A DNA stretch of 39,656 nucleotides from Bdellovibrionota bacterium (GTDB lineage Bacteria; Bdellovibrionota; UBA1018; CAUJDS01): contig CAUJDS010000033.1 of assembly GCA_963169695.1 (NCBI GenBank), positions 1 to 39,656 of the forward strand. The letters are read 5' to 3'. Position numbers and translations under genes: made by a program. Below, in pieces: positions 22,854 through 29,550 of the stretch. Below the pieces are notes generated by a model. That model was not told the origin of the DNA. It was given only the letters and a program-made list of their open reading frames with translations, and searched no databases. How positions within the stretch are numbered: the first letter of the stretch is position 1; the number at the start of each line of letters is the position of its first letter.

Positions 22854-24395
22854 CTATTCGATCCTTGCTTGCGCGTCAACCCCACGCGTTGGCAATTCAT
22901 TGCCTTGATTCTTTGTGGTCAATGCATGGCGCAACATGGACTCCAATGAAGCAATGACCGAACCGAAAGTCCCCATTTCAGGATACGATTCATTGGAAGC
23001 AAGGTAGAGGTCCTCGACGCCAGAAAGATACCCCATTCCCGAACCGTCATACACACGAAGAAAATCTGGAATAAAATCCAAATCCACAAAGTGATAGGCT
23101 TCATCCAAACCATCACCCTCTTTGGATTTTTCATCTCGAAAATCAGGAAAAATCTTCACCACATGAAAATCAAGAAACGGCAAAAGCTCTTTGGCTTGTC
23201 GAAACATCCGCAGCCCTATCTCTCTCTGGTAGGGCGCCTGCAGGGTTTCGGACTGGTGAGGTAATACCGTTCGCAAATAGACAATCCTTTGATCCGCATG
23301 GCCTGTGCCATAGTCCTTCGGACTCGCAATCGTCACCTCGAGTGGTGGTGCTCCTTCTTGGGACCAAACAAAAGACCCGCCAACTCCCGGAGGAATCGCT
23401 TCTTTATGTACCGTGACTGCTACGGTATAGCGCCATCCACACGGCCTGGATGGTCGTACAAGCTGATCTTTGCGGCCCTTACCAGAAAAATAGAGGTAGT
23501 CCTTTGCATGAGTAAGAGAGCAACCCAAAACGGCGGCATCCATCGTAATCATTTTGCCTTGCTGGGTAACTTGCACCCCAGTGAAACGACCTGAATCCAC
23601 GAATATCCTACGACAGTCGACTCCTTGAGGGACGCTAGCTCCAAGGCTTTTTGCTAAAGATAAAAGGGCGTCTCGAAATCCCTGTGCTCCGCCTCGATAG
23701 CCCGCTACGGTTTGCCCCAATGCCAAGAGATGTTGAAATCGCTGTGAACTTGGAACAGGACATTGATGTCCAGTCAAGGCATAGACTGCACCAGCAAGCC
23801 ATTCCTGATAGGAGGACTCGTCTCGAAAGGGTGGCTTTGCCCCCCGCAAAGTACCTTCTACTTCGCGAATGGACTGGTATCCCTTGCGCTGATTTCGCAT
23901 GGCCTGTTTCGATTCGACAGAAACACCCCTCGCCAGAAATTCTCGCCAATAACTCAATACTAATTGGACACTAACTTCAGGGTCGGGACTCCATTTCCAG
24001 TGATCCGCACCACGAGCCCCTACCTCGCGCACCCATTCGCGCCGAAAATCGAGAGGATGGGATGCTAGTCGAATGCGGCTAGTCCCAGTAACGACCTGAG
24101 GTTCGATCAGGGAAGTCGGAATGACTTTCTCAAGAAGCAGACTTGCACCAGGTATCGTTTCAAGAAGTTGTCGAATACTACCCCAGGACGCCGAACTTCC
24201 GCCCAAGCCCAAAATCGCATTGGGTTCAAGGTCCAAGATCTGTCCCGCTTTCGAAATCAGGGTTCCGCGACTTGGAGACAGTGGCAGGATCAATACAGAA
24301 GCGCCCGACTGCGCCATTGCGCAAGCACTGAGCAAGCTCCCAATGCTGTCACCCAAGGTAGCCCACTGGTAATGATCTCTTAAACCTGGCTCCAT
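22854..24395 (-). CDS. FAD-dependent oxidoreductase of the phytoene-desaturase-like family
   Basis: The 513-residue protein has a Rossmann-type N-terminus with a degenerate dinucleotide loop (ATLGDSIGSLLSACAMAQSGASVLIL; GxxxxG rather than GxGxxG). Past the middle it has the block AGYRGGAQGFRDALLSLAKSLGASV, typical of the NAD(P)/FAD phytoene-desaturase-like group. The degraded loop makes cofactor binding less certain. No carotenoid or isoprenoid genes are near, so the substrate is unknown. I chose the ATG at 24395 because GAGGATTT precedes it; it overlaps the end of the glycosyltransferase gene by 16 bp, which indicates coupling. Confidence 0.75.
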   Translation of the reverse strand: MEPGLRDHYQWATLGDSIGSLLSACAMAQSGASVLILPLSPSRGTLISKAGQILDLEPNAILGLGGSSASWGSIRQLLETIPGASLLLEKVIPTSLIEPQVVTGTSRIRLASHPLDFRREWVREVGARGADHWKWSPDPEVSVQLVLSYWREFLARGVSVESKQAMRNQRKGYQSIREVEGTLRGAKPPFRDESSYQEWLAGAVYALTGHQCPVPSSQRFQHLLALGQTVAGYRGGAQGFRDALLSLAKSLGASVPQGVDCRRIFVDSGRFTGVQVTQQGKMITMDAAVLGCSLTHAKDYLYFSGKGRKDQLVRPSRPCGWRYTVAVTVHKEAIPPGVGGSFVWSQEGAPPLEVTIASPKDYGTGHADQRIVYLRTVLPHQSETLQAPYQREIGLRMFRQAKELLPFLDFHVVKIFPDFRDEKSKEGDGLDEAYHFVDLDFIPDFLRVYDGSGMGYLSGVEDLYLASNESYPEMGTFGSVIASLESMLRHALTTKNQGNELPTRGVDAQARIE

Positions 24396-26656
24396 AAATC
24401 CTCGATGAGATGGTCGGTGACTCCCCGATGGCTTGCAAGGAGTTTTTTCCATGCTAAGCGCTGCAAAGAGTCGATGACCGGAACTTGCCTATTGATCCAA
24501 TCGCTGCAATCAGTGGCATCTCTGGCCATATGCAACTGGCCACGCTCCTGTAGCAATTCAATTTCTGGAAACCGTTTAGCCTTTGCTGGCCCAATCAAGA
24601 TTGGAAGTCCAAAGACCGCCGGTTCAAGCGTGTTATGCACGCCATTTTTGGTAAAGCCCCCTCCGACAAATGCCCAGTCTCCTAAAGAATACAGCTCTAA
24701 TAACTTTCCCATTTCATCGACGAGTACCGCACGCGTAGCATCCACAACGCGTCGGGTTTCTTTGCTACTTCGGGTGTAAGTGGGATTCCAGTTTTTGAGT
24801 TTTTCTCCAAAAAAGTCCAAATTCTCTCTGTGTAGCTGATGGGGAACAACCCAAAGAGTACCGCCAGTCTGATCAAGCCATCTTTGCAAACCGTCTTGAA
24901 GGACTTCAAAGTCCTCACGCCAGATGCTGCCGAGAATCCCCCAAGGCTTGGGTAGGCCCTCAAATCCTTGCTTCCAAGAAGCCAGGATGGATCCGCTTTG
25001 GTCCGCCCGATCAAGGACTCGATCCAATCTAGGATCGCCGGCCCGCCGAACCTTTGCCAACGGAAACCACTCAAGCAGGCGTTCTGCATCTGCTGCCTTT
25101 AGGACTTGAAAGGTCTGTTGAGGAAGTGATTCACCAAGCAGATTCAAAAGACGCTTGGCCCATCGAATGGAATTTCGCGCTGCCGCGGAAACCGTAAAAA
25201 GCTTGATTCCATTCTTGCTAAGACTTGCCCAAAGCTCTGGCCACGCTTCGTAGCGAGCGGTAACAAAAGTCTCAGGAGCAAAGTCTGCGAGCGCTTCACT
25301 CCAAAACCCCTCTCCCGGACTCATTCCAATCCAGTGCAATTGAGGGAGATCCTTCCATTTTTGTTTTAAACGCTCCAATGCGGGCTGAGCAGATGCGCTC
25401 CACGCAGTAATCACCAAAAGAACTTCAGGCTTTTGCAAAAGCCTCTCTACTAGAGGGAGCAGGCTTTCTAATTCTCCAACACTTGCAGCGTGAAACCAAA
25501 TACGACGTGCGGACTTATGCTTCACCGTCAGCAGTGGCAAGGGAGCCTTTGCACGATTGAAGCGGTAACCCGACGTGCGAAGCAACCTTCCAAAGATCCA
25601 TCGCGCTGCCGATCGATAGACCCTCATTCTCAAACTCCAACGCCTCTGAGTCCCACCCGTTTTTTGCAAATGAGCAAGTACCGTTGCGGGATTAAGGCCG
25701 GTCAAACATGCATAAGGCTCCCAGAACCTTTTGCAAAGTCGACCATCCTTTCCGCATGGCTGGCAGAGGAGATCTGTTTTTAATCCAAGTGAACCCTGAG
25801 TCCAGGGTTCAAATGCCGGTGCCCAACCCGTTGGACCGAGCAATACCGTCGAAGCTACACCGAGGGACATTGCCAGATGAGCAAGCCCCGTATCAGCTCC
25901 TAGAAAAAATGCTGACCCCGCAAGTGCCGTTGCGGTTTGTTTGAGATCTGCCGTCTCTAAGAGAGATTCATAGGGAAGCTCCAAATCTTCCAAGCTTCGC
26001 AACAAGGCCTGGCAAGCGGGATCTTGATTTCGTCCTAAGACTACTGCTTTTAGTTGCAGGTTCTTTAGGACTTCTACATAGGATTTTGTCGGCCACTCTT
26101 TGCTTCGCCATCGCGAAGCCGGCATCACCGTCACATACGAATCCTGCTTCTGAGCAGAATGTACAAGGTGCCTGAAGTTGGGCTTAAGCTGAGCGTCTTC
26201 TCCACACAATTCTGTCAAAGCATCTAAGCGATGAGGAGGCTTCCAGCTTGTAGGCCAAAGTCCTCCCAACATCCATTGTCCACGGGTCTTCCATCGGTAC
26301 CGTGCAACAGATCGCCAAATCAGTCTTTGACCTCTGGGTCGAAATTTCAAAATCCATTTTGCGATTCGAGTCCTGAGACTGCCATGAAGATCCCAAACTT
26401 CATCGTATTTTTCGCGCCGAAGATCCTGACAAAGCTGAATCCAGCTCCGAAGTGCACTCTTTCTTCGATCAAAGGTCCAAACCCGCTGGACGCGAGGGTG
26501 CTCCTGAAGCAACTCTGCAAATTCCTGCCCGACTAGGAAATCCACTTCAGCCTCTTTCAAGATTTTGGACTCCAGCACAGCAGCATTGAGAATAACGTCT
26601 CCCATGCTACTAAGGCGAATCAGCAAGATACGGGCTCGCTTTGAAGGTGGGTTCAA
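24380..26656 (-). CDS. Fusion of GT9 heptosyltransferase-type domain and KdtA/WaaA Kdo transferase
   Basis: The 758-residue protein joins two enzymes of lipopolysaccharide core assembly. Residues 1 to about 335 form a GT9 (ADP-heptose-type) transferase: ILLIRLSSMGDVILNAAVL, DLHGSLRTR, GADTGLAHLAMSLG and the Cys-rich CQPCGKDGRLCKRFWEPYACL. Residues about 385-758 form a GT30 Kdo transferase: WFHAASVGE with the catalytic Glu, the GSIWREDF nucleotide loop, WVVPHQLHRENL, and GDWAFVGGGFTKNGVHNTLEP. The usual KdtA membrane anchor is replaced by the GT9 domain. In the well-known systems these are separate proteins (WaaA, WaaC/F). The TTG start at 26656 lies directly after the preceding TAA with GGAGAG upstream. 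Being one polypeptide could channel the lipid acceptor between the two steps. Confidence 0.92.
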   Translation of the reverse strand: MNPPSKRARILLIRLSSMGDVILNAAVLESKILKEAEVDFLVGQEFAELLQEHPRVQRVWTFDRRKSALRSWIQLCQDLRREKYDEVWDLHGSLRTRIAKWILKFRPRGQRLIWRSVARYRWKTRGQWMLGGLWPTSWKPPHRLDALTELCGEDAQLKPNFRHLVHSAQKQDSYVTVMPASRWRSKEWPTKSYVEVLKNLQLKAVVLGRNQDPACQALLRSLEDLELPYESLLETADLKQTATALAGSAFFLGADTGLAHLAMSLGVASTVLLGPTGWAPAFEPWTQGSLGLKTDLLCQPCGKDGRLCKRFWEPYACLTGLNPATVLAHLQKTGGTQRRWSLRMRVYRSAARWIFGRLLRTSGYRFNRAKAPLPLLTVKHKSARRIWFHAASVGELESLLPLVERLLQKPEVLLVITAWSASAQPALERLKQKWKDLPQLHWIGMSPGEGFWSEALADFAPETFVTARYEAWPELWASLSKNGIKLFTVSAAARNSIRWAKRLLNLLGESLPQQTFQVLKAADAERLLEWFPLAKVRRAGDPRLDRVLDRADQSGSILASWKQGFEGLPKPWGILGSIWREDFEVLQDGLQRWLDQTGGTLWVVPHQLHRENLDFFGEKLKNWNPTYTRSSKETRRVVDATRAVLVDEMGKLLELYSLGDWAFVGGGFTKNGVHNTLEPAVFGLPILIGPAKAKRFPEIELLQERGQLHMARDATDCSDWINRQVPVIDSLQRLAWKKLLASHRGVTDHLIEDLWSQV

Positions 26657-27778
26657 TTAGTGGTCTCTCCGTTTCACCGTGACAGAACCTTTGCGGGAAA
26701 ATAGCCGTAGAAGCTCACCACCATCTCCAACATTGCCATGAATATGAGAAGAGGTAGGAACCTGCTTCTCAAGCCCCGTCTGGGTTAGAGGCCGCAATTT
26801 GAATTCCAAATCGGCTTGTTTGTCCGGTGCCTCTAGATCTAATTCTCCCGAAAAGCGCCTCGGCAGTTCAAACGTCAAATCACCACTCTCGGATTCGATG
26901 AATGACTTTCCGTCAAATTCATTGCTCAACCATTCCACAAAAATCGCCCCACTCAACGTCCTACCATTCAGCACGCCACTGAGTCGTTTGAGATTTACTT
27001 TCCCTTCTTGAGTTCGAAATCCAACATCACCCGAAAGGTCTTTACCTAAGAGTTCTCCTTTTTGACTTGAATAAGTTTGCTTCCCTCCAACATCCGAAAC
27101 TTCGATTTCTCCAGACTGAGTTTCAAAATAGTGCTCCGTACCTGCGATTCGAAAGGCACGCATGTTTCGATCTCCCCCTACGCTGTGAACATTGGCATTG
27201 ATAGATGACAGAGCAATTGGGCACTGAGGACAGGTGACGTTGATTTTTTTTGCTCGCACTTTAGAGACCTCAATCTCTCCACTGAAATTTCTTACTTTGA
27301 TGGACTCATCCCAATCTTGTACAGATATTGATCCACTGACCGACCACAACTCTAGCACCATCCGAGTAGGGGCCAAAATCCTCAAATGCAAACGAGCTTG
27401 ATTCTCCTTGCGAGCTGCAATTCGATCTTGAATCGTAGATTCTTTTGCAACACGCGTAAGGATTTCGATTTCGCTTCCGACTTGCCTGAAATCATACGAA
27501 ACCTGATTGAGCGCCTTTTTGGCTTCTTCTTCTGTTGCGCCAAATCCTTCTCGCGTTGCGATGACTCGAATTTTATCTTGGTTCCACCCGCGAACAATGA
27601 TGTTTCCTTTTCGATTACTGACTCTCAGTGTTCCAATACTGCGTACCGGATAATTCTGAATCGTATCCTGAGAAGCTGACGGAAGGCTTTCTTCCGTACC
27701 GGAATCCAACGGGGCCTCCGATGTCGCCAGCGCGGAAGGACCGGCCATAAGAAAAAGGCCAAGAAGTGGAAGCCACAT
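26657..27778 (-). CDS. Exported DUF4097-type beta-helix protein
   Basis: The 373-residue protein has a signal peptide (MWLPLLGLFLMAGPSALA|TSEAP) and then a DUF4097-like repeat of short strands, visible as GTLRVSNRKGNIIVRGW, WSVSGSISVQDWD, NFSGEIEVSKV, ETQSGEIEVSDVGG and ESGDLTFELP. The regular 'sG.i.v.....' spacing marks a right-handed parallel beta-structure, and a CPQC pair may form a disulfide. Members often lie next to sigma/anti-sigma genes, but no such partner is adjacent here. AAGGA precedes the ATG at 27778. It is followed with no gap by the glycosyltransferase fusion, so they are one transcript. Confidence 0.85.
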   Translation of the reverse strand: MWLPLLGLFLMAGPSALATSEAPLDSGTEESLPSASQDTIQNYPVRSIGTLRVSNRKGNIIVRGWNQDKIRVIATREGFGATEEEAKKALNQVSYDFRQVGSEIEILTRVAKESTIQDRIAARKENQARLHLRILAPTRMVLELWSVSGSISVQDWDESIKVRNFSGEIEVSKVRAKKINVTCPQCPIALSSINANVHSVGGDRNMRAFRIAGTEHYFETQSGEIEVSDVGGKQTYSSQKGELLGKDLSGDVGFRTQEGKVNLKRLSGVLNGRTLSGAIFVEWLSNEFDGKSFIESESGDLTFELPRRFSGELDLEAPDKQADLEFKLRPLTQTGLEKQVPTSSHIHGNVGDGGELLRLFSRKGSVTVKRRDH

Positions 27779-27829
27779 AATTTGATTCCTTTGTAGGGTA
27801 AAAATGACACACCCCCCACGGAAAATCAC

Positions 27830-27858
27830 TTGATTTGATTAACACACCGCATTATCAT
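27830..27858 (+). promoter_or_regulatory. Promoter of the c-di-GMP riboswitch RNA
   Basis: TTGATT and TATCAT are 17 bp apart, predicting a start near 27865. The -10 box matches 5 of 6 positions and the surroundings are AT-rich. It points away from the DUF4097 gene. Confidence 0.5.
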
Positions 27859-28009
27859 TAATAGTACAGTCGCAGTTTGGGTTCCGGCCTAGGTTTAATA
27901 AGGTACGTGAGAGGGTGGTTCATGGTCGGCAAAACAAGTTTCAGCAAAAAGACAGAGAGTTCGGCCCTGATGGAACAGGGTCAGGAAGAGGTGGGCTTCT
28001 TGCCCTCTT

Positions 28010-28102
28010 TGAAAAAGGCAAGTCAGTCGAAAGGCTGAACGCGCAAAGCTCCAGTGCTACGGACTGTGACCCCGACAGTTCACGCAGGCTGAGCTACCAA
28101 AG
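28010..28102 (+). promoter_or_regulatory. Cyclic-di-GMP-I (GEMM-I) riboswitch aptamer
   Basis: The conserved blocks are in order. AAAAAGGCAA is followed by a hairpin capped by a GAAA tetraloop (CAGTC-GAAA-GGCTG), then CGCAAAGC, GTGCTACGG, a 7-bp hairpin (GGACTGT with ACAGTTC), and the closing CAGGCTGAGCTACC. The GAAA loop and its receptor, the CGCAAAGC joint and the final TACC agree with the Vibrio cholerae Vc2 aptamer type. The helix GCTC/GAGC and CAG/CTG closes the second arm. It binds c-di-GMP by family; binding here is untested. Confidence 0.85.
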
Positions 28103-28158
28103 ACGGTCTGAAAAGACAGTTTCAAAGGGGGGTCCCCTACAGGATCCTCCTCTTCGAT

Positions 28159-29265
28159 TCAGAGCCCGGGTAGCCCTGAGGGGCTATCCGGGCTCGACCA
28201 TTTCTTGAGCGCGTGATTCTTCGCTCGGGTCAGCCTCAGCGAAATAGCAGACTCCGACAAATCAAAGAGCCACCCCACTTCCAATTGCGAATACTCAAAT
28301 TCAAAATTCAAAAATAGGATTACCCTATCCCTCAACGCAGCTCCCGTTGCAGAAACAAGGTCTGACATTCCCAGTTCAGGCCAAAGCCGAATGGTAAGCG
28401 CTTCTCCATTCACTTCAATTTCCTCGCGAGTCCGCGAAAGCCCAATCACCCCTGCCCTTCGAATCGGATCCTTAGAAAGGGGTAGTTCCAGCACAACTGG
28501 CGCATCTTCTGACGGGAAAGATGAGCCAACGCCTCGAGATCCGCTACCTCCACTCATTTCCATTCTATACTGCTCATCGGCCTTTTTAATCGGCCAATCA
28601 GCCCTTTGCATAGGCTCCAAAGGGTTTTCGAATTGCAATTCATCAAAGGACCGCATTGCCAAGAAAAGAACGTCTTCCTTTTCTGATCGCCACCATAGGC
28701 TTGAAAAATTTCTGACAATGCTGAACTCTGCCTCGTTCAAAACCGATTGCAGCTCCTCAATGGCAATCTCCTTTACCGCCGCAGCTACAAAATACATAGC
28801 CAAGGGATAGTTGCGATGTTCGACAATTTCATCCACATGCTCAAGGGTCAACCAGCTTGCGTTATGCTTCTGCCACAATCGCAAAACCTCATCGATGGCC
28901 CTCCAACGTTTAACCAAAGTCTTTAAGGGAGCCAGCGAAGTACGCCCTTCGAGGCGCATATAATCTATGATGCGGGCCTTGCCTTGAACCTTAAGTAGAA
29001 TATCCGAGCGCTCTGCCTTTTCTGCTTCAGAGAGGCGACTTCCACTTTGCAAGAGGGACAAGACAGCCTGCTGGGCCAAGTCTTCCACTGTAAAGTTCAC
29101 TCGATTGCCATTGGCCTTCCTTACGAAAGTCCTCCCAACCTTTAAAAAGTAGGGAAAGAGCCCCAAAACCCGCCTTTCGTACTCATCTCGCCCTTGCCAG
29201 GAAAAAACGGTTTTGCACGCGTAGCCTAGGTCAGTGGAGGATGAGAAGGCCAGATTCGGCTCCAT
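28159..29265 (-). CDS. Divergent FliA/sigma-28-like RNA polymerase sigma factor
   Basis: The C-terminus has a sigma region 4 helix-turn-helix (LSESAISLRLTRAKNHALKKW), preceded by LRDRVILFLNFEFEYSQLEVGWLF. The N-terminal half has a region 2-like block, DLAQQAVLSLLQ ... KARIIDYMRLEGR, followed by a region 3-like helix (LVKRWRAIDEVLRLWQKHNASWLTLEHVDEI). This order is that of FliA/WhiG sigma factors. It is longer (368 residues) because of an insert of about 150 residues between regions 3 and 4. I start at the ATG at 29265; an ATG at 29301 would add a hydrophobic stretch and sits behind a GGGCC hairpin. Its last codons lie in the terminator hairpin of the opposing c-di-GMP RNA. The regulon is unknown. 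Confidence 0.6.
   Translation of the reverse strand: MEPNLAFSSSTDLGYACKTVFSWQGRDEYERRVLGLFPYFLKVGRTFVRKANGNRVNFTVEDLAQQAVLSLLQSGSRLSEAEKAERSDILLKVQGKARIIDYMRLEGRTSLAPLKTLVKRWRAIDEVLRLWQKHNASWLTLEHVDEIVEHRNYPLAMYFVAAAVKEIAIEELQSVLNEAEFSIVRNFSSLWWRSEKEDVLFLAMRSFDELQFENPLEPMQRADWPIKKADEQYRMEMSGGSGSRGVGSSFPSEDAPVVLELPLSKDPIRRAGVIGLSRTREEIEVNGEALTIRLWPELGMSDLVSATGAALRDRVILFLNFEFEYSQLEVGWLFDLSESAISLRLTRAKNHALKKWSSPDSPSGLPGL
28162..28195 (+). terminator. Strong 15-bp hairpin at the end of the c-di-GMP RNA
   Basis: A 15-bp stem with one G-U pair and a TGAG loop starts GAGCCCGGGTAGCCC. It is followed by GACCATTTCTT, so the U run is poor. It is probably a terminator or RNA-end stabiliser. It lies inside the last codons of the convergent sigma-like gene. 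Confidence 0.55.
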
Positions 29266-29474
29266 TCCCAATTCCAAAAGAAAGAGGAAGAGAACAGCCA
29301 TAGGGCCTTTGCGGCCCTTTCGCCCCGAGTATTTTATTTTAATCTTCAAGAATACCGTCCCCCTAACCTTACAGAGTGGGATCGATACCACCTGTGCAAC
29401 TATTCTGCAAATCGCGCCCCTTTTGACTTCGCCCTGACATTCGGCTAAACAGGTTGAATCCTTTCTCAGTCTAA

Positions 29475-29550
29475 GGTGACGTGCCGGAATGGTTAACGGG
29501 ACGGTTTGCAAAACCGTATTCTGTGAGTTCGATTCTCACCGTCACCTCCA
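29475..29550 (+). tRNA. tRNA-Cys (anticodon GCA)
   Basis: The cloverleaf is complete: acceptor GGTGACG/CGTCACC, anticodon arm ACGGT-TTGCAAA-ACCGT with anticodon GCA, T arm with GTTCGATTC, discriminator T as expected for tRNA-Cys, and an encoded CCA. A bidirectional terminator follows 3 nt later. Confidence 0.97.

Follow-up and report, generated by a model that had tools for sequence, protein, structure and literature searches.

What can a c-di-GMP riboswitch do when it has no gene to control? A locus in a 39,656-nt stretch of DNA from a Bdellovibrionota bacterium (contig CAUJDS010000033.1 of assembly GCA_963169695.1; the whole stretch is called the window here) raises this question. An initial annotation, made from the sequence alone, placed a GEMM-I aptamer at 28010-28102 within a promoter-to-hairpin unit of about 335 nt, noted the lack of a downstream gene on the same strand, and proposed that the RNA itself acts, either as a c-di-GMP sink or as a ligand-gated trans-acting RNA, with merRNA of Bdellovibrio bacteriovorus as the precedent.

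The aptamer and its predicted transcription unit

A cmscan search of the window returned a match to RF01051 (c-di-GMP-I, GEMM-I) at 28007-28101 on the plus strand, with 56.7 bits against a curated cut-off of 35 bits, an E value of 1.2e-8 and model positions 1-87 complete. By score the element is a full-length member of the family, as the annotation had proposed, and the entire source genome (2.79 Mb) contains this single copy. The same search found no further Rfam family in the 5' part of the RNA. By register with published GEMM-I structures, we take the aptamer to keep the ligand-contacting residues G20, A47 and C92 (Vc2 numbering) and the P2 GAAA tetraloop. The covariance model identifies a c-di-GMP-I aptamer, which presumably binds c-di-GMP. 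The unit around it spans about 340 nt, close to the length first estimated, and is bracketed by a predicted promoter and a predicted terminator hairpin:

26657..27829, minus strand: upstream divergent gene for a DUF4097 protein (neighbour, outside the RNA), with a homologue in 20 class loci including the window
27830..27858, plus strand: promoter-like -35 TTGATT and -10 TATCAT with a 17-nt spacer (consensus match and similar boxes in relatives)
28007..28101, plus strand: c-di-GMP-I (GEMM-I) aptamer (RF01051, 56.7 bits)
28162..28206, plus strand: terminator, a 15-bp hairpin (28162-28195) and a T-rich tail, GACCATTTCTT
28159..29511, minus strand: downstream convergent gene with a weak sigma-70/ECF region 4 match (neighbour), its stop codon abutting the terminator hairpin

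Transcription would start near 27865. A generic promoter scan found 2 promoters where 1.7 were expected, which is not above chance, and the generic sigma-70 scan is noisy, most loci scoring near shuffled sequence. Support for the putative promoter comes from similar TTG-N16/17-TA boxes that lie at about the same distance upstream in many relatives. The spacer between -35 and -10 often resembles AACGCnnTGCGTTA in the window and many relatives, including other families of the phylum, and may be an operator site or part of a promoter type peculiar to the lineage. At the other end, the window hairpin at 28162-28195 is absent from the output of a strict terminator scan; the corresponding hairpins of relatives covary at 9 of 10 pairs and are followed by T runs.

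The absence of a same-strand gene downstream holds in this genome. No plus-strand gene occurs for 1.2 kb past the RNA; the first feature on that strand is a tRNA at 29475. A cis-acting c-di-GMP riboswitch would have a gene downstream on its own strand; here the neighbour is on the minus strand, and the queuosine gene queE, which follows the RNA in most relatives, is absent from the genome. A plus-strand ORF that overlaps the aptamer (27915-28208) is unsupported, because the spacing between elements changes in relatives by lengths that are not multiples of three. Further upstream on the minus strand (24380-26656), a single 758-aa frame encodes an LPS heptosyltransferase fused to a WaaA-like Kdo transferase, which is an unusual arrangement.

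Two competing folds

We aligned 31 RNAs of the class (alignment A1). RNAalifold, unprompted, recovered from the class alignment helices A and B, P2, P3 and the terminator. The RNAs share a class-specific order: a closing helix of 7 bp comes first, then the aptamer, an anti-P1 strand of 12 nt and a hairpin that can form only alongside P1, with the terminator hairpin last. In the window, the elements outside the terminator are as follows:

27985..27991, plus strand: helix A 5' strand, GAAGAGG (99% of cells paired, 31 sequences)
28003..28014, plus strand: strand X, CCCTCTTTGAAA, which forms the 5' side of either P1 of the aptamer or the competing helix B (12 bp)
28098..28103, plus strand: P1 3' strand, CAAAGA, paired with 28006-28011 in the presumed ligand-bound fold
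28106..28117, plus strand: small hairpin H3, GTCT-GAAA-AGAC (fold and alignment; variable in relatives)
28120..28131, plus strand: strand Y, TTTCAAAGGGGG, the anti-P1 strand, whose complement is strand X (together they form helix B)
28126..28151, plus strand: hairpin D, AGGGGGGTCC / GGATCCTCCT, blocked by helix B and permitted once P1 forms
28149..28155, plus strand: helix A 3' strand, CCTCTTC, partner of 27985-27991

P1 and hairpin D are mutually exclusive with helix B, and both arrangements are conserved. In A1 the fold with helix B has 94.8% of cells paired and a covariation of 0.415 versus 0.199 in shuffled alignments (0 of 500 reached it), and sliding partners pair in at most 55% of cells; the alternative fold with P1 and D has 93.0% of cells paired (0 of 500 shuffles). 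When partners were swapped among the 31 sequences, the native hairpin D was better in all 5000 trials, and P1 gave p=0.009. Helix B is paired in 96% of cells and is near-invariant, with two-sided compensatory changes in a few lineages. Its swap test is uninformative within the class (p=0.31) because strands X and Y hardly vary, and across families the signal is weak (p=0.04-0.07). Shuffling the window's downstream region gave strand X an equally good partner in 14 of 2000 cases, and a matching anti-P1 strand is retained in f3, a diverged family of the order. The initial annotation had seen no recognizable family in the 5' part of the RNA. That part is indeed mostly unconserved, except for GAAGAGG at 27985-27991 and a hairpin at 27963-27982.

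The two folds are nearly equal in computed energy: the P1 fold minus the B fold is +1.8 kcal/mol in the window, with a median of +3.9 kcal/mol over the 31 RNAs. The KD of a c-di-GMP-I aptamer is about 1 nM (as cited in PMC3627812). With a nanomolar aptamer, micromolar c-di-GMP would contribute about 4 kcal/mol and could thereby shift the equilibrium between the folds.

Several segments are candidate points of contact with other molecules, and two of them are hairpin loops:

27963..27982, plus strand: hairpin H1, GGCCCTG-ATGGAA-CAGGGTC (fold), with an ANGGA loop
28067..28075, plus strand: P3 apical loop with conserved ACCCC

The ANGGA loop of H1, present in 23 of the 31 RNAs where 4.4 would be expected, resembles a CsrA site, and the source genome encodes CsrA. 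The P3 loop reads A(C/T)CCC in 30 of 31 RNAs on a stem that covaries. The third segment is the C/U-rich strand of hairpin D, GGATCCTCC in the window and GGACCCCC in most relatives, which in the computed folds is largely free without ligand and paired in the bound form. A kissing interaction of the ACCCC loop with a downstream GGGGU was considered and rejected, since native pairs were no better than swapped ones (p=0.99). In family f6 (L020, L023, L024, L034, L035 and L036), the loop of hairpin D contains an extra hairpin whose ACCCC apical loop resembles that of P3; its stem varies between species around the constant loop.

Distribution and relation to Bdellovibrio merRNA

RF01051 occurs in 42 of 58 genomes of the class and in 109 of the 241 phylum genomes that are at least 90% complete, always as a single copy. 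Within its class, the window aptamer scores towards the low end. A covariance model of the whole RNA (R1), the comparison that the initial annotation had called for, matched strongly and over its full length once in each of 37 genomes of the order; the window scores 151 bits, and it and most of the other matched genomes are training members of the model. Among 84,980 species genomes, the pattern of strand X, aptamer and strand Y was found in 20 contigs, all from metagenome-assembled genomes titled Bdellovibrionales, Oligoflexia, Bdellovibrio, Bacteriovorax or Bacteriovoracaceae, apart from one titled just 'Proteobacteria'. No plasmid relatives were found. Some relatives score best as the variant c-di-GMP-I-GGC (RF03167). 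A divergent c-di-GMP-I match in family f9 (L062, locus coordinates 1521-1592) has a T run after it and then, on its own strand, a gene with an ATG start; it looks like an ordinary cis riboswitch.

The kinship with merRNA proposed at the outset is supported. In B. bacteriovorus HD100, the single aptamer lies at 1073868-1073951 on the minus strand, inside the published merRNA (1,073,741-1,074,185, minus strand; Karunker et al. 2013, PMC3627812), which its authors did not find conserved beyond the Bdellovibrio lineage. Like the window RNA, with its predicted promoter and terminator, HD100 merRNA carries the only c-di-GMP-I aptamer of its genome in a stand-alone terminated unit without a regulated gene, and it has an anti-P1 strand downstream of the aptamer. 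Outside the aptamer, the flanks of the two RNAs are unrelated in sequence and only the design is shared. In HD100 merRNA the 5' part is longer, the switch is UCCUUCC/GGAAGGA and there may be a micro-ORF, whereas the window RNA has helix A, a GGGGGG hairpin D and the ACCCC loop and lacks a conserved micro-ORF. In the HD100 type, UCCUUCC before the aptamer faces GGAAGGA some 30-40 nt after it. Native partners outperformed swapped ones across 24 distinct Bdellovibrio sequences (p=1e-4; reversed-sequence control, p=0.45), and compensatory changes occur, for example UACUUCC with GGAAGUA. Both lineages thus combine an orphan aptamer, a competitor strand and a terminator outside the alternative pairing, by common descent or repeated invention.

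The aptamer core is common to the window RNA and the c-di-GMP-I cis riboswitches (RF01051 and RF03167), but the window RNA regulates no gene in cis here and its terminator takes no part in the alternative pairing. Also comparable are ligand-gated riboswitch RNAs that act in trans, namely the EutX/Rli55 cobalamin RNAs (discussed in PMC7602753) and Listeria SreA (cited in PMC3627812). As proposed for the window RNA, they place an aptamer within a short RNA that acts beyond its own downstream gene; they differ in ligand, phylum and architecture. Their outputs are sequestration of EutV and pairing with prfA mRNA, neither of which has a known counterpart in the window RNA.

Since 2013 merRNA has been seen as a curiosity without relatives beyond Bdellovibrio; our results suggest that it is one member of a far broader set of RNA switches. 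Already known were the aptamer and, from the one precedent of merRNA, the stand-alone form. New are the distribution across the phylum at one copy per genome, a 3' switch domain specific to the class, a two-state design common to both lineages and the possible Bdellovibrio micro-ORF. We tentatively raise the possibility, less probable than the reading of the window RNA below, of a hitherto unrecognised, Bdellovibrionota-wide class of c-di-GMP-gated trans-acting RNAs in which HD100 merRNA is one branch and the Bdellovibrio branch also encodes a micropeptide. In such a class the RNA would be its own output, alternating between two conserved folds.

A proposed gated RNA acting in trans, and its alternatives

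With about even confidence, we read the window RNA as a stand-alone, c-di-GMP-gated RNA that acts in trans through a two-state switch. Its own promoter would yield a terminated RNA of about 340 nt in which a competitor strand further downstream is coupled to the single aptamer. In the ligand-free state, X would pair with Y in the 12-bp helix B, so that the aptamer could not close fully and the 3' strand of D, which is C/U-rich, would be free; with c-di-GMP bound, P1 would close, Y would be released and hairpin D would form, hiding that strand. Helix A and the terminator would stay unchanged, so that what differs between the states is which segments are exposed. Since the two folds have the terminator in common, the switch probably does not govern transcription of a downstream gene. 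The exposed strand of D, the ACCCC loop and possibly the GGA hairpin (through CsrA) may instead act in trans on an mRNA or protein. A supply of c-di-GMP is plausible, because the source genome encodes three GGDEF domains.

The initial annotation left the choice between sink and gated RNA open. As a sink, the RNA would be an abundant passive c-di-GMP reservoir that releases its ligand on degradation, as proposed for Bdellovibrio merRNA, and helix B would just lower the apparent affinity into the cellular concentration range. A conserved, single-copy, stand-alone unit fits that role, and in HD100 it remains plausible because merRNA in attack phase reaches some 2 million RPKM (PMC3627812). The authors of the storage model call it yet to be validated. 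In the literature searched we found no later functional study of merRNA; a 2024 paper reports its expression only (PMC11323537), and a paper on Vc1, searched for short transcripts, contained nothing on them. A sink has no need of a conserved competitor strand, hairpin D, the ACCCC loop or the GGA hairpin. The anti-P1 strand and competing hairpin 3' of the aptamer lead us to prefer the two-state switch, and we regard a passive reservoir as a minority possibility at about half the weight. That the switch is conserved in two unrelated-looking versions makes the choice directly testable; if the RNA is gated, it would represent a trans-acting class of c-di-GMP riboswitch, in bacteria whose predatory life cycle is under c-di-GMP control.

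The lack of a target gene, true of the source genome, is not self-evident for the family, because in 34 of 42 class loci the RNA is followed on the plus strand by a gene for a QueE-like radical-SAM protein, which in most of them starts about 25-50 nt beyond the terminator. The RNA could therefore descend from a cis-acting c-di-GMP riboswitch of queE and be an orphaned remnant in the window. In three genomes that lack the RNA, a good queE match was likewise missing, which fits this origin; the joint absence may also mean that a shared contig is missing. In the source genome queE was not found with a query that recovers it in HD100, G039 and G045, yet the RNA has kept all its elements, so it outlives its neighbour. 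The two are also apart in G039 and G045 (by several kb), HD100 (far from merRNA), G018 and G055. The terminator is strong and a conserved antiterminator was not seen. By eye, a TGNTATNA-like box often stands directly after the T tract and before queE, which has no visible Shine-Dalgarno sequence, and together these suggest that queE in relatives has a separate, leaderless transcript. A functional link between the RNA and queE might hold in other relatives, but a queE leader seems to us unlikely. Still more improbable is that the RNA encodes a micropeptide under switch-controlled translation, as its Bdellovibrio homologue may: an ORF running from ATGGAAG to DWFHSP-stop is found just before the merRNA terminator in about 30 of 37 Bdellovibrio-family genomes, but two members have it out of frame and no start codon is conserved among the 31 class RNAs. 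A chance or decaying aptamer without function, which the low score of the window copy within its class might suggest, is least credible of all given the conserved architecture and covariation. The gated trans-acting RNA is the reading we favour over the reservoir and the queE leader.

At six loci (L002, L005, L011, L012, L015 and L019), contigs end at a similar distance, 400-540 nt, upstream of the aptamer. These ends carry CTCTCTTTCAAAAAATTCATC...TTTTCAAAGA, which is rRNA-leader-like on the opposite strand, and because of this resemblance the class RNA may adjoin an rRNA operon. As a cause of the contig ends, rRNA genes beside the RNA were rejected, since cmscan found none inside the contigs despite the leader-like ends.

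The Bdellovibrio micro-ORF (L043-L052, L063-L065, L079-L082 and L104-L123) lies 30-80 nt after the aptamer and is mostly 14-22 codons long, in many lengths and mostly in frame (exceptions, L109 and L117). In HD100, whose merRNA was described as non-coding, it is MEGTNTYKDWFHSP. In family f14 (L053, L066 and L067), the aptamer is followed by AAGGAGG and, after 4-5 nt, an ATG, the start of a possible micropeptide that in two cases runs into the terminator.
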